Shown here in pieces: positions 20,620 to 31,169 of a DNA stretch of 37,620 nt. The notes beneath the pieces are model-generated. The model saw nothing but the letters and a program-made list of their open reading frames with translations, made no database searches and was not told the origin of the DNA. Both the position numbers and the translations under genes were made by a program. Within the stretch, counting starts at the first letter, position 1. Every line of letters starts with the position of its first letter. The DNA is from Intrasporangium chromatireducens Q5-1 (lineage in GTDB: Bacteria > Actinomycetota > Actinomycetes > Actinomycetales > Dermatophilaceae). The stretch spans positions 1 to 37,620 of the forward strand of contig NZ_AWQS01000018.1 in assembly GCF_000576575.1 (NCBI RefSeq), read 5' to 3'.

Positions 20620-21084
20620 TCAGCGGACGGGGTCGACGCCGATGTCCTCCGCCCACAAGGTGGGCCGCTCGGCGAGCAGCCGCTCCATGAGGGCGCGGCA
20701 CTCCAGGTCGTCCACCACCTCAACGGTCACGCCGTGGCTGCGCAGCAGGCCCTCGGCCACCGTGAAGGTGCGGTTCTCTCCGATGACGACGCGCGGAATG
20801 CCGTAGAGCAGAACGGTCCCCGCGCACATGTGGCACGGCGAGAGAGTCGTGTAGAGGACGCTCCGTTGGTAGGTCGCCGCTGGACGGCGGCCGGCCCGCT
20901 CGATGGCATCGGTCTCGCCATGCAGGATCGCGCTGCCGAGCTGGACCCTCCGGTTGCGGCCCGCTGCCAACAGCCTGCCCTCGTGCACGAGCGCAGCCCC
21001 GATGGGTATGCCATCCTCCGCCCAGCCCTGTCGCGCCTGGTCGAGCGCGACGTCCAGCCAGCGCCGGTCCTCGTCAGCGATCAT
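20620..21084 (-). CDS. Yeast-type cytosine/creatinine deaminase
   Basis: This 154-aa zinc deaminase has a catalytic site of His55-x-Glu57 (ILHGETDAIE) and Cys84-x2-Cys87 (LSPCHMC). The segments LYTTLSPC, LLYGIPRVVIGEN, VEVVDDLEC and the C-terminal ERPTLWAEDIG closely follow yeast cytosine deaminase Fcy1, rather than the larger amidohydrolase-type CodA of E. coli. Creatinine deaminases, such as CodA of Corynebacterium glutamicum, also attack cytosine and convert creatinine to N-methylhydantoin plus ammonia. Its ATG overlaps the MFS stop (ATGA), and the operon has creatininase and creatinase, so creatinine deamination is a strong candidate role. Cytosine remains possible. Confidence 0.87.
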   Translation of the reverse strand: MIADEDRRWLDVALDQARQGWAEDGIPIGAALVHEGRLLAAGRNRRVQLGSAILHGETDAIERAGRRPAATYQRSVLYTTLSPCHMCAGTVLLYGIPRVVIGENRTFTVAEGLLRSHGVTVEVVDDLECRALMERLLAERPTLWAEDIGVDPVR

Positions 21085-22346
21085 CGTCCACCTTCCATCT
21101 CCGGCGCTGTAGGCACATCGGTATGTGGTCTGCCGCTCGCCAGGCCCTCAGGCCCTTCCGGCAGCGTCGCCTCCAGCATCGTGGGGCGGCAGAAGGTGGC
21201 GGAACCCGCCATCATCGGCAGGAGGGTCAGGGCGAGGAAGACGAACGGCGCCGTCCAGCCGCCGGTGGTGCCGTGGAGCAGGCCGGTGACGATCGGCCCG
21301 GTCGCGGCGATGAGGTAGCCGACGCCCTGCACGAAGCCGGAGAGGGCGACGGCGCCGGCGCTCGTCACGGTCCGGAGGGCCACGAGACAGAGGGCGAGCG
21401 GGAAGCCCGTCGCGGCGACACCGACGAGGACGGTCCAGAGCAGCGGCGCCCGCCCCGGCGCCAGCACCAGCCCACCGTAGCCGGCGAGGTAGCAGGCCAC
21501 GCCGAACAGCGAGACGACGAAGGGGTTGCGCAGCCGAGCGGCCGCCCAGGGCACGGTGAGGGCGAGCGGGATGCTCATGAGGGCGTAGAGGCCCAGCAGC
21601 GAGCCGGCGTCGGCACGGCTCGTGCCCGCCTCGGCCAGCACCGTCGGGAGCCACGCGTAGACCGAGTAGGTGTTGAGCGAGGTCGTGCCGAGGAGGGCGG
21701 CTCCACCCCAGGCGACCCGGCTGCGGAGCAGCGCGGAGAGCGGCACGGCCGCGCTGCGTGCTTCGGTCTCGAGACGAGGGGCTCCGGTCCTGCCAGCGAG
21801 GCACAGCCACGGCAGCATGGCCACGACCGCGAAGCCGGACCAGATGCCGAGCCCGGCCCGCCAGCCGAGCCGGTCGGCCACGGGGACGACCGTCAGAGCC
21901 GGCAGCGCCGTGCCGAGCTGCAGGCCGATGCCGTAGAGCGCGGTGAGCACTCCGAGCCGATGCGGGAAGTGACGCTTGACCAGGGGAGGGAGCAGGACGT
22001 TGCCCATGCCCATCCCGACGAGGGCAACGAGCTGGCAGGCGAAGAAGGCCCAGGCCCCCGGGGCGATCGCGCGGGCGGCCAGGCCCACGGCGGCGAGCGC
22101 CATCGCCCCGGCCGCGGCACGTTCGTGGCCGATGCGGCGCACCGTCGCCGGCGTCCCGAGCCCGGCGAGGCCGAACAGCACCGGCGGGAGGCCGGCCAGC
22201 AGGCTCAGCGTGACGCCGCCGAGGTGGAGCTGCCCGTCGAGGTCGCCGAGCAGCGGCCCGAGCGAGGTCACCGCGGAGCGCAGGTTGAGCGCCAGCAGGA
22301 GGATGGCTGCGAGCACGGCCACGCGCCGGAGCGAACCGGCCCCCAC
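21081..22346 (-). CDS. CynX/NimT-type MFS transporter, candidate creatinine carrier (CrnT-like)
   Basis: This 421-aa carrier has about 12 hydrophobic segments. The N-terminal LALNLRSAVTSLGPLLGDL is typical of the CynX (cyanate/2-nitroimidazole) MFS family. The start is a GTG at 22346 with no clear ribosome site; a strong hairpin (22331-22371) overlaps it, so translation may be coupled to creatinase or controlled. It is translationally coupled to the deaminase downstream. In Corynebacterium glutamicum a permease gene (crnT) is paired with creatinine deaminase, which this pairing resembles. Substrate could be creatinine, cytosine or another small N-compound. Confidence 0.85.
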   Translation of the reverse strand: MGAGSLRRVAVLAAILLLALNLRSAVTSLGPLLGDLDGQLHLGGVTLSLLAGLPPVLFGLAGLGTPATVRRIGHERAAAGAMALAAVGLAARAIAPGAWAFFACQLVALVGMGMGNVLLPPLVKRHFPHRLGVLTALYGIGLQLGTALPALTVVPVADRLGWRAGLGIWSGFAVVAMLPWLCLAGRTGAPRLETEARSAAVPLSALLRSRVAWGGAALLGTTSLNTYSVYAWLPTVLAEAGTSRADAGSLLGLYALMSIPLALTVPWAAARLRNPFVVSLFGVACYLAGYGGLVLAPGRAPLLWTVLVGVAATGFPLALCLVALRTVTSAGAVALSGFVQGVGYLIAATGPIVTGLLHGTTGGWTAPFVFLALTLLPMMAGSATFCRPTMLEATLPEGPEGLASGRPHTDVPTAPEMEGGR

Positions 22347-22392: not shown

Positions 22393-23643
22393 TCAGACCG
22401 CCACGATGTTGTGCTCGGGGCCGAACGGGAACTTCGTGATGTTCTCCGCGCCGTCCTCGCCCACGACGAGGATGTCGTGCTCCCGGTAGCCGCCCGCGCC
22501 GGGCTGGCCGTCGAGGACGGTGATCATCGGCTCCATGGACACGACCATGCCGGGCTCGAGGACCGTGTCGATGTCCTCCCGCAGCTCGAGGCCGGCCTCG
22601 CGGCCGTAGTAATGCGACAGGACGCCGAAGGAGTGGCCGTAGCCGAAGGTGCGGTTGGGCAGCAGCCCGTAGCCGACGTAGATCTCGTTGAGCTCGGCGG
22701 CGATGTCCTTGCAGACGGCGCCGGGCTTGATCAGCTCGAGGCCCCGGCGGTGGACCTCGACGTTGATATTCCACAGCTCGAGGGAGCAGGCGTCCGGCTC
22801 ACCGAGGAACAGCGTGCGCTCGAGGGCGGTGTAGTAGCCGGAGGTCATCGGGAAGCAGTTGAGCGAGAGGATGTCGCCGCGCTGCAGCTTGCGGGTCGTG
22901 GACCAGTTGTGGGCACCGTCGGTGTTGATGCCGGACTGGAACCAGACCCAGGTGTCGCGGATCTCCGAGTCGGGGAAGGTCCGGGCGATCTCGTGGACCA
23001 TCGCCTCGGTCCCGATCAGGGCGACCTCGTACTCGGTGATCCCCTCGCGGATGGCGGCCCTGACCGCCTCGCCGCCGAGGTCGCCGATCCGGGCGCCGTG
23101 CTTGATGACCTCGATCTCCTCCGGGGACTTGATCATCCGCTGGCGCATCGCGGCCTGGGCGACGTCCACGAGCTCTGCGCCGTCGAAGAGGGCCTGCAGC
23201 TTCGCGTGCGCGTCGAGCGAGAGGGTGTCGAACTCCACGCCGAGGCGCCGGGGGGTGATGCCTCGCTCGGCCAGCGCCTGCTGGACGCCGTGCTGGAAGT
23301 TGTCGCGCCTCCAGTCGGTGTAGACGATGTTCTCGCCGTAGCTGCGTCGCCACGGCATGCCGGCGTCGATGTTGGCAGTGACCGTGACCTGGTCGTCGGG
23401 GGTGACGACGAGGGCGTAGGAGCGGCCGAAGTAGGTGAACAGGAAGTCCGAGTAGTACTTGATGCCGTGGTACGAGGTCAGCACGACGGCGTCGAGGTCC
23501 TTGGCCGCCATGATCCGGCGCAGCCCGGCGAGGCGACGCTCGAACTCGGCGTCGGAGAAGGTCAGCTGGACCTTCTCTCCGTTGTGCAGCACCTTGAGCC
23601 GCTCGAGCTCGGAGACGGACCTGACGGCGGTGTCGATGGACAT
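22393..23643 (-). CDS. Creatinase (creatine amidinohydrolase)
   Basis: This 416-aa enzyme hydrolyses creatine to sarcosine and urea (EC 3.5.3.3). It has the pita-bread fold of the M24 family but not the metal ligands of aminopeptidases. Near-identical blocks to Pseudomonas creatinase are visible: TSYHGIKYYSDFLF, FGRSYALVVT, NIVYTDWRRDN, FQSGINTDGAHN with His245 at the place of active-site His232, LSLNCFPM, FGYGHSFG, LSHYYGREAGLELRED, PGMVVSMEPM and GGYREHDI. The N-terminus is about 13 residues longer. The ATG is preceded by AAGGAG. It follows creatininase by 75 nt and feeds sarcosine to the sox operon. Confidence 0.96.
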   Translation of the reverse strand: MSIDTAVRSVSELERLKVLHNGEKVQLTFSDAEFERRLAGLRRIMAAKDLDAVVLTSYHGIKYYSDFLFTYFGRSYALVVTPDDQVTVTANIDAGMPWRRSYGENIVYTDWRRDNFQHGVQQALAERGITPRRLGVEFDTLSLDAHAKLQALFDGAELVDVAQAAMRQRMIKSPEEIEVIKHGARIGDLGGEAVRAAIREGITEYEVALIGTEAMVHEIARTFPDSEIRDTWVWFQSGINTDGAHNWSTTRKLQRGDILSLNCFPMTSGYYTALERTLFLGEPDACSLELWNINVEVHRRGLELIKPGAVCKDIAAELNEIYVGYGLLPNRTFGYGHSFGVLSHYYGREAGLELREDIDTVLEPGMVVSMEPMITVLDGQPGAGGYREHDILVVGEDGAENITKFPFGPEHNIVAV

Positions 23644-23718: not shown

Positions 23719-24504
23719 TCACGGTTGTGGGGTCGGGACCTTCAGCTCGGGTCCGATGGACGCCGCGAGCGCTGCGGACGTCCGCTCGAGGAGCAGGCGG
23801 CCGGCCTGTTCCGACGCCGCGACGGCTGACGAGAGACATCCGGACGCCGGGGTGAGGTCGGCGCGGACGGGAAGGGTGTCGTAGCGGGGCAGCTGCGCGG
23901 CCGGCAGGTCCATGACCCGGTCCAGCCGCACGAGCTCGGGATACAGGTGCAGCATGAGGGAGGTCTCGAGGACGCCGCCGTGCTCGACGTCCCAGCCGGG
24001 GAAGGCGCCTCGGTAGATCTCCTCGATGGTGTCCTCGTCGACGAAGTCCCAGTAGGACAGGAGGATCGCCGAGACGTCCTGACCGCGCTGGGTAAGCTCG
24101 GTGGTCGCCTGCTCCACGCCCTCGTAGAGGAATTGGTAGTTCTCGAAGTGGCCGTTGAGGAAGACGAGCCGCCGGGCGCCGTGCCGGGCGAACTCGAGGG
24201 TCAGCGTCCGGGCGATCGAGATGAGGGTCGCCGCGTCGAGGCTGGTCGTGCCGCCGAGGTGGTTGCCGCCACCGGACCGCTGCTGCGACTTGTACCCGTA
24301 GACGATCGGTGCGGCCACGATGCCGTCGACCGCCTCGGCGAGGCGCCGGCTCATGGCCTTGGCCAGGACGACGTCGGTGTTGAGTGGCAGGTGGGGTCCG
24401 TGCTGTTCCACGGAGCCCACGGGGATGATGACCGGTGCACCGGCCGCGATGGCGTCGCGGTAGGTGAACGCGTCGAGCTCCTCCATGAAGACGGTGCTGG
24501 GCAT
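23719..24504 (-). CDS. Creatininase (creatinine amidohydrolase)
   Basis: This 261-aa enzyme reversibly opens creatinine to creatine (EC 3.5.2.10). Metal ligands expected from Pseudomonas creatininase are all present with an offset of one: Glu33, His35 and Asp44 in VEQHGPHLPLNTD, and His119 and Glu121 in NGHFEN. Other matching blocks are YGYKSQQRSGGGNH, GTTSLDAATL, LSYWDFV and WDVEHGGVLETSLML. The ATG at 24504 has AGGAG upstream; the longer open frame to 24600 is not needed. Located between the NCS1 permease and creatinase, in pathway order. Confidence 0.95.
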   Translation of the reverse strand: MPSTVFMEELDAFTYRDAIAAGAPVIIPVGSVEQHGPHLPLNTDVVLAKAMSRRLAEAVDGIVAAPIVYGYKSQQRSGGGNHLGGTTSLDAATLISIARTLTLEFARHGARRLVFLNGHFENYQFLYEGVEQATTELTQRGQDVSAILLSYWDFVDEDTIEEIYRGAFPGWDVEHGGVLETSLMLHLYPELVRLDRVMDLPAAQLPRYDTLPVRADLTPASGCLSSAVAASEQAGRLLLERTSAALAASIGPELKVPTPQP

Positions 24505-24577: not shown

Positions 24578-26140
24578 CTACTGGAGCGCGGGGCGGGCAA
24601 CCGCCGCTGGCCCCGGAGCCGGTGTGCGGCCGTGGTCAGAGGCGTCGCCGTGGTCGCGGAGGTAGTCCTCGTCGCTCACGCTCGCCCGGATGCCGAGCGG
24701 GACGCCGTGGTGGATGCGGGCCCGGAAGCGCGGGTAGCCGAGAGCGAAGTAGACGAGCCCGGAGGTCAGGGTGCCGGCGAGCCAGGAGAGGTCGACGCCG
24801 CCCATCGCGGTGGCGACCGGACCCTGGAAGATCGGCAGGCTGCCGTACATGAACATCCAGGTCATGACGAGGCCGGCAACGAAGGCCACCAAGGCGGACA
24901 CGTTGACGCTCTTGAGCCGCGTGTCACGCGGGTTGAGGAAGAGGTAGCCGAAGTCCTTGTGCCGACGCTCGAAGCCGAAGTAGTGCACGACCATGATCCC
25001 GCCCCAGGTGGCGACCCACGCGACGATCGTGCCGAGCCAGTTGTCGAGCAGGGCGGCGAAGTCCTGGGCGAAGAGGAAGAGGATGACGGCTCCCATCGAC
25101 AGGAAGCCGACGAGGACCGAGAGCTTCTTGCGCGAGATCCGGATGTCCAGGGCCTGGAAGGCGACGCCGAAGGTGTAGAGGTTGATGATGTTCGTCGCGA
25201 TCGGCCCGTGAATGACCAGGAGGATGACCGGGATCGCCAGGGCACCGAAGCTCTTGACGACCAGCTGGCCGGGGTCGGCCGTGCCACTCATCGTCGCGAG
25301 GCTTGCGCCGAGCAGGCCCAACCACACGACGGGCAGGAACTGGCCGAGGACGGAGGCGAGATAGAGCTTGGTCTTCGGCACACTCTTCGAGACGAAGCGG
25401 GAGTAGTCCGGCGCGTAGGTGAACCAGCCGATCCCCCAGCCGATGCCGATGACGGTCATGATCCCCGACATCGCGGCGATCCGGGCGCTGCCGTGCAGGA
25501 CGTGCCCGGCCGGGCCGACGTAGCCCCAGTCGATGGGCAGCTTGGTCCAGGCGATCACGGACATGGCGACGAGCACGAGGAGCGTGGGCGGCATCGTGAT
25601 GCGCTCGAACTTGGCGATGGCGCTGTAGCCCCGATAGCAGATGGCGACCTGGATGCCCATGATGATTGCCGCGACGCCGACCTTCCAAGGCAGGTTCGAC
25701 TGGCTGGGATCGATCCAGCCGATCTGCCCGAAGAGGGCCATGACGAGGTCGAGGATGACCCAGGTGTTCACGGCGGACCAGCCGACCGCGACGATGGCCT
25801 GGATGGCTGCGGGCAGGTAGGCGCCCCGTCGCCCGAAGGCACCGCGGGCGAGCAGCATGCCGGTGGCGCCGGTCTTCTGGCCGAGGAGGACGAAGAAGCC
25901 GAAGCCGATCATGCCGATGACGTTGCCGATGACGAGCACCGTCATCGTGTCCTTGAGGCCGAGCCCGAGGCTGATGCCCAGGGCTCCGAGGATCCAGTTG
26001 ATCGGGGCGACGTTGGCGCCCGCCCAGATCCAGAACTGGCCGGAGACTTTGGTCGTACGGGCCGACTCGGGGACCGGTTGCAGCACATCTTCGACGGTGT
26101 GCGTGACGTCCTCGGAGTGGCTCTCAGTGCGAAGGCTCAT
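24578..26140 (-). CDS. NCS1-family permease (CodB-like), likely creatinine/creatine importer
   Basis: This 520-aa membrane symporter of the nucleobase:cation symporter-1 family has about 12 hydrophobic segments. Family-like regions include WIWAGANVAPINWILGALG in the first membrane helix, AFGRRGAYLPA, and GWFTYAPDYSRFV. The start at ATG 26140 gives the usual short polar N-terminus; the open frame running up to 26266 crosses the regulatory gap. It is the first gene of the creatinine operon, divergent from the PucR regulator. NCS1 proteins carry cytosine, hydantoins, allantoin and similar small rings, so a creatinine role is reasonable but inferred from context. Confidence 0.88.
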   Translation of the reverse strand: MSLRTESHSEDVTHTVEDVLQPVPESARTTKVSGQFWIWAGANVAPINWILGALGISLGLGLKDTMTVLVIGNVIGMIGFGFFVLLGQKTGATGMLLARGAFGRRGAYLPAAIQAIVAVGWSAVNTWVILDLVMALFGQIGWIDPSQSNLPWKVGVAAIIMGIQVAICYRGYSAIAKFERITMPPTLLVLVAMSVIAWTKLPIDWGYVGPAGHVLHGSARIAAMSGIMTVIGIGWGIGWFTYAPDYSRFVSKSVPKTKLYLASVLGQFLPVVWLGLLGASLATMSGTADPGQLVVKSFGALAIPVILLVIHGPIATNIINLYTFGVAFQALDIRISRKKLSVLVGFLSMGAVILFLFAQDFAALLDNWLGTIVAWVATWGGIMVVHYFGFERRHKDFGYLFLNPRDTRLKSVNVSALVAFVAGLVMTWMFMYGSLPIFQGPVATAMGGVDLSWLAGTLTSGLVYFALGYPRFRARIHHGVPLGIRASVSDEDYLRDHGDASDHGRTPAPGPAAVARPALQ

Positions 26141-26199
26141 GTGGGACTGCTTTCTCGTTGGTTCCCCTGTCAGGAGCGAGTTAGCCGGCTGCCGACAAC

Positions 26200-26273
26200 A
26201 GTAAATGTGGCCCCGGTCACCACCTAGACTCATGCTGTCGCCCATGGGCGGCCGAATGGGTGACACTTTTACT
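26200..26273. promoter_or_regulatory. Divergent control region of the creatinine operon with two inverted half-sites
   Basis: AGTAAATGTG (26200-26209) and CACTTTTACT (26264-26273) are inverted copies with 9 of 10 positions matching, 54 nt apart, between the permease and the PucR-type gene. They could be binding sites of that regulator. I could not settle on promoters here. Confidence 0.35.
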
Positions 26274-26292
26274 ACGTGAGGCTGGGGGACCC

Positions 26293-27798
26293 GTGTCGCT
26301 TCTGCTGAGTGAGATCCTGGGCAGCGGCATCCTCGAAGCCGGTGCCCCCAGCGTCGTCGCAGGCCGGGATGTGCTCGCCCGCACCCGGGTCCGGTGGGTC
26401 CACTCGAGCGAGGTCCTCGAGATCGCGCCCCTCCTGTCGGGAGGGGAACTGCTGCTCACGGGCGGGGGTGCGCTGCTCGCGCTGAAGCCGTCGGTCCAGG
26501 TCGAGTACGTGTGGAGCCTCGCCTCCCGGCGCGTCGCCGCCGTCGCGGTGGAGACGGCCGGGACGGGGCGGCAGCTGCCGGCCGAGATCGTGACGGCCGC
26601 CGAGCAGGCAGGGCTGCCGCTCATCGAGCTGCGGCAGGTGGTCCCCTTCGTCGAGGTGGCAGAGGACGTGAACCGTCGCATCGTCTCCGCCCAGGTGCGG
26701 GCGCTGCAGGTGGCCGACCAGCTCTCGCAGGCCCTGGCGGAACGGATCGCCAACTGGGGCGCTGCGCTCGACCCGCTCCTGGCGCTCATCGCAGAGAGCC
26801 TCGGTGTCCACGTCCGGGTCCTCGACACCCGCGGGGGTATGCTCGGCGCTGCCGGACCTGAACCGGGCGAGGACGATCGCGGCCCGGGCTCGGAGTTGAC
26901 GGTCGGAGGCATCGGTGTGGCACAGCTCGAGCTGATCGGCGGGCCGGGTGCCGATCTGGAGATGCTCGAGACGGTGCTGGCCAGGGTGCGCAGCATCGTG
27001 GCCCTCGCGCTCGCCGGGCAGAGCCGGCCCAGCCTGACCCGGCTCGCGGAGGACGAGCTGCTCCGCCTCATCGGGGCGGGCGGTGGGGGAGAGCGCCTCA
27101 TCGAGCTGAGCCAGGCCGCGCGGATCGACCCCGAGAGGCCGATCGCCATGGCGGTGGTGCGCCGGCCGCCCGACGGCCAGGTCGACATCGAGCAGCGGAC
27201 CCGCCGCGCGCTGCCGTCGACGCTGGTCGTCGCCGACGGGGACTGGCTCAACATCCTCGTGCCGCTCCGGGGCGGTGCCACTCACGCCGAGCGCTCCCAG
27301 GCACTCGCCGTGCTGCGGGATGCGGTCGCGGGCAGCGGGCTAACTGGTGCGCTCGGGCCCACCGCGCTGACCGTCCGCCAGGCCTCGTTCTCCCTCTCCG
27401 AGGCCCGCGCCACCTGGCGGCTCGGCCGATCAGCCAAGTGGCCGGACGCCATCTACGACGCGTCCGACTTCCTCGTCGAGCGGATGGCGGAGCGGTCACT
27501 CTCGCGGGGCGTCGTGGAGGCCCTTGTCGAGGAGGTCCTCGGGGAGCTCGTGCGTCTCGACCAGCGACACGGAGGCGAGCTGGTCCGCACCCTCGACGTG
27601 TGGATCTCGACCGGCTGCAACGCCACGGAGTCGGCTCAGCTGCTCTTCCTGGAGCGGCAGTCGCTGCACAAGCGGCTGCGTCGCATCTTCGAAGCGCTCG
27701 GTGGCGATCCCCGTGGCCGCGGCAAGCTGGCCGCCCTGGCCTTCGCGGTCAAGCTCGTCCGGGGCAACGCCCAGCTGCGCGACGACGTGCGACCCTGA
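26293..27798 (+). CDS. PucR-family transcriptional regulator of the creatinine operon
   Basis: This 501-aa regulator begins with a PucR N-terminal domain (LLLSEILGSGILEAGAPSV, TGGGALLAL, LPLIELRQVVPFVEVAEDVNRR) and ends with a PucR-type helix-turn-helix (VRTLDVWISTGCNATESAQLLFLERQSLHKRLRRI at the C-terminus in two recognisable parts). A middle region of GAF/CdaR-like length links them. GTG 26293 is preferred because GGGGGA precedes it and the family start fits; GTG 26260 is an in-frame alternative. PucR proteins usually regulate purine or amine catabolism, and it is divergent from the permease-creatininase-creatinase operon, so control of creatinine use is likely. Confidence 0.87.
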   Translation: MSLLLSEILGSGILEAGAPSVVAGRDVLARTRVRWVHSSEVLEIAPLLSGGELLLTGGGALLALKPSVQVEYVWSLASRRVAAVAVETAGTGRQLPAEIVTAAEQAGLPLIELRQVVPFVEVAEDVNRRIVSAQVRALQVADQLSQALAERIANWGAALDPLLALIAESLGVHVRVLDTRGGMLGAAGPEPGEDDRGPGSELTVGGIGVAQLELIGGPGADLEMLETVLARVRSIVALALAGQSRPSLTRLAEDELLRLIGAGGGGERLIELSQAARIDPERPIAMAVVRRPPDGQVDIEQRTRRALPSTLVVADGDWLNILVPLRGGATHAERSQALAVLRDAVAGSGLTGALGPTALTVRQASFSLSEARATWRLGRSAKWPDAIYDASDFLVERMAERSLSRGVVEALVEEVLGELVRLDQRHGGELVRTLDVWISTGCNATESAQLLFLERQSLHKRLRRIFEALGGDPRGRGKLAALAFAVKLVRGNAQLRDDVRP

Positions 27799-28641: not shown

Positions 28642-29946
28642 ATGTCCCAGGTCACCCTTGCCCAGTCGGTCCTCGACACCGACCTCGGGCACCTCGATCC
28701 GGAGATCTCTGACGCGATCACAGCCGAGCTGCGCCGCCAACAGGGCACGCTCGAGATGATCGCCTCGGAGAACTTCGCGCCCACCGCTGTCATGCAGGCG
28801 CAGGGCTCGGTGCTGACGAACAAGTACGCCGAGGGCTACCCCGGGCGGCGCTACTACGGCGGATGTGAGCACGTCGACGTCGTCGAGACCCTGGCCATCG
28901 AGCGGGTCACGGCGCTCTTCGGGGCCCAGTTCGCCAACGTCCAGCCTCACTCCGGAGCGCAGGCGAACGCCTCGGTCATGCACGCGCTCCTCCGGCCGGG
29001 CGACACGATCCTGGGCCTCGACCTCGCACATGGCGGGCACCTGACGCACGGGATGCGGCTCAACTTCTCCGGGCGGCTCTACAACGTGGTCGCCTACGGG
29101 GTCCGCGAGGACACCCATGTGGTGGACCTCGCCGAGGTGGAGCGGCTGGCCCGGGAGCACCGGCCCTCGATGATCATCGCCGGCTGGTCGGCCTACCCCC
29201 GGCAGCTCGACTTCGCCGAGTTCCGTCGGATCGCCGATGCGGTCGGCGCCTACCTCTTCGTCGACATGGCGCACTTCGCCGGGCTCGTCGCGGCCGGGCT
29301 GCACCCCTCGCCTGTGCCTCACGCGCACGTCGTCACGTCGACGACGCACAAGACCCTCGGCGGCCCACGCGGCGGCATCATCCTCACCAACGACGCCGAG
29401 ATCGCGAAGAAGCTCAACTCCGCCGTCTTCCCGGGCCAGCAGGGCGGTCCCCTGGAGCACGTCATCGCCGGAAAGGCGGTCGCCTTCAAGGTCGCCGCCA
29501 CCGAGGACTTCCGTGAGCGGCAGCAGCGCACCCTCGACGGGGCCGCCGCGCTGGCCGAGCGCCTCACCGCGCCAGACGTCGCAGCCAAGGGGATCTCCGT
29601 CCTGACCGGTGGGACGGACGTGCACCTCGTGCTCGTCGACCTGCGCCACTCCGAGCTGGATGGGCGGCAGGGCGAGGATCTGCTCCACTCGATCGGCATC
29701 ACCGTCAACCGCAACGCCGTGCCCTTCGACCCCCGTCCCCCGATGGTCTCCTCGGGCCTCCGGATCGGCACCCCGGCACTCGCGACCCGCGGCTTCGACC
29801 GTGAGGCCTTCACGGAGGTCGCCGACATCATCGCGACGGCGCTCGCCGGTGACGGCTCGGAGGAGACCCTCGCCCCGCTGCGCGAGCGGGTCCGTGACCT
29901 GGCCGCGCGATTCCCCCTCTATCCGAACCTCGACAAGGGGCAGTGA
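28642..29946 (+). CDS. glyA: Serine hydroxymethyltransferase
   Basis: This 434-aa PLP enzyme interconverts glycine + 5,10-methylene-THF with serine + THF. It has [10 protein letters not shown] near residue 38, [28 protein letters not shown], and PLP Lys237 in [16 protein letters not shown] follows GGAGGACC closely. As first gene of the sox operon it joins the two products of sarcosine oxidation, glycine and methylene-THF, into serine. A dedicated copy in addition to a housekeeping glyA elsewhere is expected from this context, but that second copy is not visible here. Confidence 0.96.
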
Positions 29947-29948
29947 CG

Positions 29949-31169
29949 ATGAACCAGCGCGAACTTCCGCAGCACCCCGACTTCCTCTGGGCCAACCCTG
30001 AGCCGAAGAGCGGCTACGACGTGATCATCGTCGGGGCCGGTGGGCACGGGCTTGCGACCGCCTACTACCTGGCCAAGCACCACGGCATCACCAACGTCGC
30101 CGTCCTCGAGCGCGGGTGGATCGCAGGCGGGAACATGGCCCGCAACACGACGATCATCCGGTCGAACTACCTCTGGGACGAGTCGGCCGCCATCTACGAG
30201 CACTCCCTCAAGCTCTGGGAAGGTCTCGAGGACGAGCTCGGCTACGACGTCTTCTTCTCCCAGCGTGGCGTGCTCAACCTCGCGCACACGCTGCAGGACG
30301 TCCGCGACTCGGTCCGCCGGGTGGAGGCCAACCGCCTCAACGGGGTCGATGCCGAGTGGGTGGACCCGCAGCAGGTCAAGGAGCTGTGCCCGATCATCAA
30401 CATCGGGGACGACATCCGCTATCCCGTCATGGGCGGCACCTACCAGCCGCGAGCCGGCATCGCCAAGCACGACTGGGTCGCCTGGGGCTATGCCCGGCGC
30501 GCGAGCGAGCTCGGCGTCGACCTCATCCAGAACTGCGAGGTCACCGGCTTCGTCATGGACGGTGGCCGCGTCACCGGGGTCGAGACGAGCCGTGGCCGGA
30601 TCAACGCCGGCAAGGTGGCCCTCTGCGCGGCCGGTCACACCTCGGTGCTCGCCGACCTCGCCGGCTTCCGGGTGCCGATCCAGTCCCACCCGCTCCAGGC
30701 CCTCGTCTCCGAGCTCCACGAGATCATCCACCCGACCGTCGTCATGTCGAACCACGTCCACGTCTACGTCTCCCAAGCGCACAAAGGGGAGCTCGTCATG
30801 GGCGCCGGCATCGACTCGTACAACGGCTACGGCCAGCGCGGCTCGTTCCACGTCATCGAGCACCAGATGTCGGCGGCCGTCGAGCTGTTCCCCGCCTTTT
30901 CCCGGGCCCACCTGCTCCGCACCTGGGGCGGCATCGTCGACGTGACGATGGACGCCTCGCCCGTCATGGGGCCGACCCCGGTCGACGGCATGTACGTCAA
31001 CTGCGGCTGGGGCACTGGTGGGTTCAAGGCCGTCCCCGGCGCCGGCTGGGCCTACGCGCACACGATCGCCACCGACCAGCCGCACGAGCTGAACCGGGCC
31101 TTCGGCCTGGACCGCTTCGTCAGTGGCGCCCTCATCGACGAGCACGGCGCCGCCGCCGTCGCCCACTGA
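29949..31169 (+). CDS. soxB: Sarcosine oxidase beta subunit
   Basis: This 406-aa subunit of heterotetrameric sarcosine oxidase carries FAD and covalently bound FMN. It has an N-terminal dinucleotide fold [18 protein letters not shown] and [18 protein letters not shown]. His174 in [14 protein letters not shown] corresponds to the histidine that binds FMN covalently, and the C-terminal [15 protein letters not shown] is conserved. ATG 29949 has AAGGGG upstream; GTG 29943 overlaps the glyA stop (GTGA) and is the alternative. Oxidation of sarcosine here gives glycine, H2O2 and, with THF on the alpha subunit, methylene-THF. Confidence 0.95.

Follow-up and report, generated by a model that had tools for sequence, protein, structure and literature searches.

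A zinc deaminase of the yeast cytosine deaminase (Fcy1) type is encoded by the last gene of a minus-strand run of five genes that includes creatininase and creatinase in the window (by which we mean the whole 37,620-nt stretch of DNA analyzed here), and genes of this type recur beside creatinine loci that hold the same type of NCS1 permease, their products being polyphyletic within the family. The explanation that we propose from comparison of these sequences, and to which we give about an even chance, is that a deaminase acting mainly on cytosine has been drawn into a creatinine operon as an accessory enzyme that releases nitrogen. The Fcy1-family deaminase would be co-expressed with an NCS1 creatinine importer, creatininase and creatinase, and a zinc-bound water, activated by the glutamate of the HGE motif, would attack the amino-bearing ring carbon of the substrate to release ammonia. 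The main substrate would be cytosine, yielding uracil and ammonia, while the operon core would serve nitrogen scavenging by converting creatinine to creatine and then to sarcosine and urea. Creatinine would be a possible secondary substrate, the NH2-C=N-C=O unit being common to creatinine and cytosine, and the CynX-type MFS protein would probably be a further carrier, transporting some metabolite of the pathway, with no conserved tie to the deaminase.

One odd gene has in this way become a testable pattern, in which, in several groups of actinobacteria, a deaminase of the cytosine type tracks an NCS1 permease of the creatinine type. Should creatinine be a substrate, creatinine deamination would have arisen in two folds, which would matter for nitrogen scavenging and for creatinine-sensing enzymes; if cytosine alone is the substrate, the locus warns how gene order may mislead annotators into a second creatinine route.

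The deaminase and its locus

The genes for the deaminase (20620..21084; 154 aa, ATG start) and for a CynX/NimT-like MFS carrier (21081..22346; 421 aa, GTG start) were both confirmed at these positions on the minus strand. In a phmmer search of the PDB, the 13 best matches of the deaminase were all yeast cytosine deaminase (top match 1uaq, E 4.1e-39), followed by TadA (E 8e-15), and PF00383 was matched with 71 bits. The AlphaFold model (14 aligned sequences; pLDDT 95.3, pTM 0.90) superposes along its whole chain on yeast cytosine deaminase 1ox7 with a TM score of 0.93 and a structural identity of about 45%. The enzyme has the CDA fold with the zinc motifs HGE (HxE) and PCHMC (PCxxC), is identical to the yeast enzyme at 13 of the 13 active-site positions compared, and keeps the zinc ligands H62/C91/C94, the catalytic E64, and N51, F114, W152 and D155, the last four of which we take to be residues lining the cytosine site. 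Yeast Asp92 is replaced by His, at a position that varies widely in all groups of relatives. The resemblance to Fcy1 that the earlier note had pointed out is thus confirmed, and the Fcy1-type assignment, as judged from sequence, is far beyond chance. Family membership argues strongly for a predicted cytosine-to-uracil activity, a reading that is also supported by yeast cytosine deaminase being the only close solved relative. Fold, active site and about 45% identity are shared with yeast Fcy1 (EC 3.5.4.1), whereas the window enzyme is bacterial and lies in a creatinine operon; CodA-type creatinine deaminase, in contrast, has an amidohydrolase-superfamily fold in place of the CDA fold. It is the sole Fcy1-type gene of the source genome (4.8 Mb in 660 contigs, the window being on contig C18), two weaker matches (32% and 38%) corresponding to other deaminase-fold proteins.

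Along the minus strand, the gene order is an NCS1-family permease that is probably a creatinine importer (24578..26140), creatininase (creatinine amidohydrolase, 23719..24504; 261 aa), creatinase (creatine amidinohydrolase, 22393..23643; 416 aa), the MFS carrier and the deaminase, with successive gaps of 73, 75, 46 (or 70) and -4 nt, the last being the ATGA (21084-21081) in which the MFS and deaminase genes overlap; a simple codon-bias gene finder favors an MFS start at 22322 over that at 22346. The identities of creatininase (TIGR04448, 321 bits, above the cut-off of 235; 1j2t, a creatinine amidohydrolase, E 5.5e-77) and creatinase (1chm, a creatine amidinohydrolase, E 1.1e-169; PF00557 and PF01321) are solid as homology assignments. 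The permease is separated by 152 nt (26141..26292), presumed from its position to contain the operon promoter, from a divergent PucR-type regulator gene on the plus strand (26293..27798), which is assigned by similarity to a PucR-domain protein that occupies the corresponding position in further NCS1 loci: its homologues adjoin NCS1 there, and the one at L240:6851-8368 is PucR by Pfam. A motif scan of this intergenic region gave no match to a sigma-70-like promoter, and a weak terminator-like hairpin is located directly 3' of the NCS1 gene, such sites numbering 2 in the region versus 1.3 in shuffled sequences. From this gene layout, it is plausible that the five genes form one co-transcribed operon, and the earlier placing of the deaminase in a creatinine operon agrees with the uninterrupted minus-strand run and its 4-nt overlap. 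Beyond the regulator, the plus strand carries serine hydroxymethyltransferase (glyA, 28642..29946; NF000586, 604 bits), which would act downstream of sarcosine, and the sarcosine oxidase beta subunit (29943..31169; TIGR01373, 635 bits), followed up to 34518 by look-alikes of the delta and alpha subunits, which resemble annotated neighbors in L085. Creatininase, creatinase, glyA and sox are common to the window and to the Arthrobacter/Pseudomonas-type creatininase-creatinase-sarcosine oxidase clusters, to which the window adds the Fcy1-type deaminase and the CynX-type carrier.

Linkage of the deaminase to creatinine loci

In a survey of 396 genomes of the order, creatinase was detected at E 1e-120 or better in 40 and the deaminase at E 1e-25 or better in 53, the two lying within 6.1 kb of each other (centre to centre) in 7 of the 40 (G000, G588, G002, G329, G393, G592 and G663). 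An eighth linked case is the locus L073 of a Dermatophilaceae MAG (7.6 kb), which was at first classed as ‘other’, its creatinase being about 7.5-7.6 kb from the deaminase, and was relabelled as creatinine-linked (7 to 8) before the tree and active-site comparisons described below. Considering only creatinase loci, the deaminase occurs in 6/9 with an NCS1 permease of the window type within 9 kb versus 1/31 without (p 1.4e-4), among 14 creatininase loci in 5/6 versus 0/8 (p 0.003), and genome-wide in 12/16 genomes with such a permease versus 41/380 without (p 1.2e-8), these Fisher p values being too small because the surveyed genomes are related. The eight creatininase loci lacking the permease, near none of which the deaminase was found, carry a BCCT carrier (L167, L175, L177, L179, L181, L188, L189 and L191), and creatinase is present in 14 of the 16 genomes with the window-type NCS1. 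The linkage of the deaminase to the creatinine module is not due to chance. A survey of 296 genomes of the class, including the source genome and three genomes of the order survey, found creatinase in 6 and the deaminase in 48, with adjacency only in G000 and G002, and no report of such a gene cluster was found among open-licence papers.

Gene order is not uniform among the linked loci: in G592 (L159), NCS1, creatinase, creatininase, deaminase and a ProP-like carrier follow one another on one strand, and it is creatininase itself (9343-8558) that overlaps the deaminase gene (8561-8088) by 4 nt. This arrangement bears on the idea that the deaminase is a mere hitchhiker, with no tie to creatinine metabolism, in a cluster of PucR-controlled nitrogen-scavenging genes. 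PucR-type genes neighbor the deaminase in CodB loci too, the creatinase and deaminase genes are 23 kb apart in G203 and 315 kb apart on a megaplasmid of Arthrobacter StoSoilB13, and none of four annotated plasmid creatinase loci has a deaminase within 10-12 kb. We nevertheless regard hitchhiking as very improbable, given the contrast between creatinase loci with and without the window-type NCS1 and the existence of two different arrangements with a 4-nt overlap, in the window and in G592.

In L073 (8992-15142), within the creatinase locus, the deaminase gene is immediately followed by a gene of the metallo-beta-lactamase fold and by a urease cluster, so that urea derived from creatine is probably used there.

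Relatives of the deaminase and its substrate

Relatives of the deaminase with 65-71% identity in named genomes mostly adjoin a CodB-like permease. The 134 loci gathered yielded 113 distinct family members (window included) after sequences shorter than 100 aa and near-duplicates had been dropped, of which 29 lie in a CodB-type context, 17 beside another NCS1, 7 in creatinine loci and 60 elsewhere, the last class being over-counted as the flanks of some labelled loci extend to only 1.5 kb. In one Fcy1-like/permease pair, on a public plasmid, the permease is annotated as cytosine permease. Because many close relatives adjoin CodB-type permeases, cytosine deaminase is the default reading of the enzyme; these bacterial Fcy1-like genes have the same active site, whereas the partner in the window is an NCS1 that is not of the CodB type.

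At the 13 active-site positions, the eight creatinine-linked enzymes are identical to the yeast enzyme except for a single G63A in one of them, a change also present in 5 of the 29 CodB-linked enzymes, and a comparison of the 8 creatinine-linked with the 29 CodB-linked proteins at 44 positions surrounding the active site revealed no creatinine-specific residue. On a tree of 60 of the 114 rows (six long rows being among those omitted), the eight creatinine-linked enzymes require 7 changes of state, at least 5 of which are forced by starred branches, and are interspersed with CodB-linked and unlinked relatives. A single clade of all eight was rejected (AU p 3.7e-56), as was a clade restricted to the five closer enzymes (p 3.8e-4). 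The phylogeny proposed in the earlier note as a check consequently did not set creatinine-linked deaminases apart, and such polyphyly is as expected if an ordinary deaminase was drafted repeatedly.

Three types of NCS1 are paired with Fcy1-type genes, namely CodB, the window type and a third with Ala at the place of Gln105, which would allow the cargo of the partner to vary. The deaminase might in that case clear a side substrate of the permease, imported along with creatinine: a different cyclic guanidine or amino-heterocycle, for example glycocyamidine or 5-methylcytosine. In line with this, a distant Fcy1-like deaminase (43%) on the atrazine plasmid pADP-1 (L090:7127-9101) adjoins a short gene annotated as ring-opening amidohydrolase, with which it may form a small catabolic pair. 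We consider such a substrate unlikely, since the cytosine-type site is conserved.

Cytosine as the main substrate meets difficulties, one of which concerns the permease. CodB binds cytosine via Gln105, Trp108 and Phe204, and mutation of Gln105 or Trp108 sharply reduces cytosine transport, according to the accessible part of PMC9379551. The window NCS1 is 27% identical to E. coli CodB (PF02133, 156 bits); Trp108 is kept while Gln105 and Phe204 are absent in all 17 window-type permeases (16 from the NCS1 survey plus that of L073), the place of Phe204 being less sure as the TM6 alignment is gapped, in contrast to the 12 CodB-linked permeases aligned (from 29 loci), all of which keep both. In the absence of Gln105 and Phe204, the window-type NCS1 is probably not a CodB-type cytosine carrier, as a partner of a cytosine deaminase should be. 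Another is that a substrate role of creatinine would more readily account for the deaminase having been recruited repeatedly to creatinine loci. The only other NCS1 of the source genome is not CodB-like either; this second NCS1, at L218:1-2568 (contig C1), is located directly upstream of a protein that by eye looks like HyuA, the two being perhaps a hydantoin uptake pair.

Neighbors of the window-type NCS1 across the 17 loci are creatininase (6), a PuuE-like gene (8), a CodA-type amidohydrolase (2) and a TRZ/ATZ-type amidohydrolase (1), which fits creatinine as the probable cargo of the permease by analogy among loci. In G528 (L239:8321-11199), an NCS1 58% identical to that of the window has the CodA-type amidohydrolase 44 nt behind it, and in G643 a CodA-type deaminase lies near another relative of the window permease, both loci being devoid of creatininase and of the PuuE-like gene. 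In C. glutamicum, CodA is a creatinine deaminase encoded beside CrnT (PMC8864220, in its accessible part), and the earlier comparison with that pair gains from the locus in G528, where a CodA-type enzyme directly follows the NCS1 as would be expected. The module of C. glutamicum likewise joins an importer to a deaminase possibly acting on creatinine, although the CodA fold is unrelated and the window has creatininase and creatinase as well. CrnT is presumably itself kin of the NCS1 family.

The window deaminase may then be a physiological creatinine deaminase of the Fcy1 fold, converting creatinine to N-methylhydantoin and ammonia in a nitrogen-only branch beside creatininase and creatinase, a reading that we hold tentatively and at clearly less than even strength. 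It would account for a linkage to creatinine NCS1 loci that is tight, recurs and is polyphyletic, for the overlap with creatininase in G592, for an NCS1 type without the cytosine side chains of CodB, and for a CodA-type deaminase taking the same position in G528 (and a near one in G643), as CodA does beside CrnT. On the other hand, the active site is unchanged from that of CodB-linked kin, without any creatinine-specific residue, and N-methylhydantoin would either be a dead end or need HyuA/HyuB and N-carbamoylsarcosine amidase. The accessible part of PMC8864220 describes both situations: in C. glutamicum ATCC 13032, CodA turns creatinine into N-methylhydantoin as a dead end, while ATCC 14067 adds HyuB, CshA and creatininase (crnA), with crnT, codA, crnA, hyuB and cshA in separate operons and creatinase absent. 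HyuB (PF02538) has five matches in the source genome, none of them on window contig C18; a genome search found it absent from three of the eight linked genomes (G592, G663 and G002), and in the others it is off the linkage contigs, with the possible exception of distant positions on the same replicon. Furthermore, creatininase or a PuuE-like gene would already handle the cargo in seven of the eight linked loci (all except that of G002), so that deamination would be a competing branch, which could even so provide quick nitrogen. The second creatinine route suggested in the earlier note hence retains the recurrent, polyphyletic linkage in its favor (7/40 loci) and is weakened by HyuB lying off the contig and by the lack of a creatinine-specific residue. 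The view that having both routes in one transcript is unusual loses part of its force, as ATCC 14067 has CodA as well as creatininase, albeit in separate operons and without creatinase (PMC8864220, same part). The accessible text of PMC6742649 attributes creatinine deamination only to the general label ‘cytosine deaminase’, and a literature search found nothing on creatinine as a substrate of the yeast enzyme. A wider version, in which Fcy1-type enzymes repeatedly became creatinine deaminases with CrnT-like NCS1 (which would give EC 3.5.4.21 another fold in addition to that of CodA), the importer being served by interchangeable, unrelated creatininase, PuuE-like creatininase or CodA, appears doubtful though worth stating. 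A mainly cytosine-acting accessory enzyme remains our preferred reading.

The MFS carrier and a PuuE-like gene in the place of creatininase

The MFS carrier matches TIGR00896 (CynX/NimT) with E 2.9e-80 and 270 bits, below the curated cut-off of 406, also matches PF07690 and shares 29% identity with E. coli CynX; ‘CynX-type’, as it had been named, is a fair label, and CynX itself is not indicated. A relative with 60% identity adjoins creatinase in L073, about 6 kb from the deaminase. Of 41 loci, two (the window and L073) have the carrier at most 9 kb away from creatinase, and among the gene maps compared it stands beside the deaminase in the window only. Coupling between the deaminase and the CynX-type carrier was accordingly rejected as a conserved feature, and the pairing from which the earlier note had started is peculiar to the window. 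No ProP/CreT-like carrier gene is present within 9 kb of the window creatinase, and the MFS carrier may substitute for the ProP-like creatine carrier found beside creatinase elsewhere.

Near the window-type NCS1, a PuuE-like gene is present in 8 of 17 loci and creatininase in 6, with both in none. The PuuE-like genes, all in loci without creatininase, are L073:4759-5715, L092:15856-16803, L157:10695-11657, L170:8404 onward, L236:9976-10923, L237:10191-11138, L238:7704-8669 and G002:C10:71498-72376. TIGR04448 creatininase was found in 6/6 genomes of the creatininase type and in 0/5 of the PuuE-type genomes searched whole (G588, G281, G418, G002 and G296, the last an incomplete MAG), out of eight such genomes. 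On the NCS1 tree, several forks of which are open, the creatininase and PuuE-like states change at least three times; L170, with the PuuE-like gene, is nested among creatininase-type loci in a group with full support, and a single creatininase-type clade was rejected (AU p 5e-30). No relevant literature on a PuuE-like gene in the place of creatininase was found among open-licence papers.

The PuuE-like protein has the polysaccharide-deacetylase fold and, at 82 bits versus a cut-off of 424.6, is not a true PuuE. Its best solved relative is 3rxz (E 1e-105), a polysaccharide deacetylase whose function is not stated, with PuuE allantoinase 3cl6 among the next PDB matches. The hydrolase is a candidate for a creatininase or hydantoinase unrelated to the known one, and as a putative unrelated creatininase it can be tested directly and separately from the deaminase.
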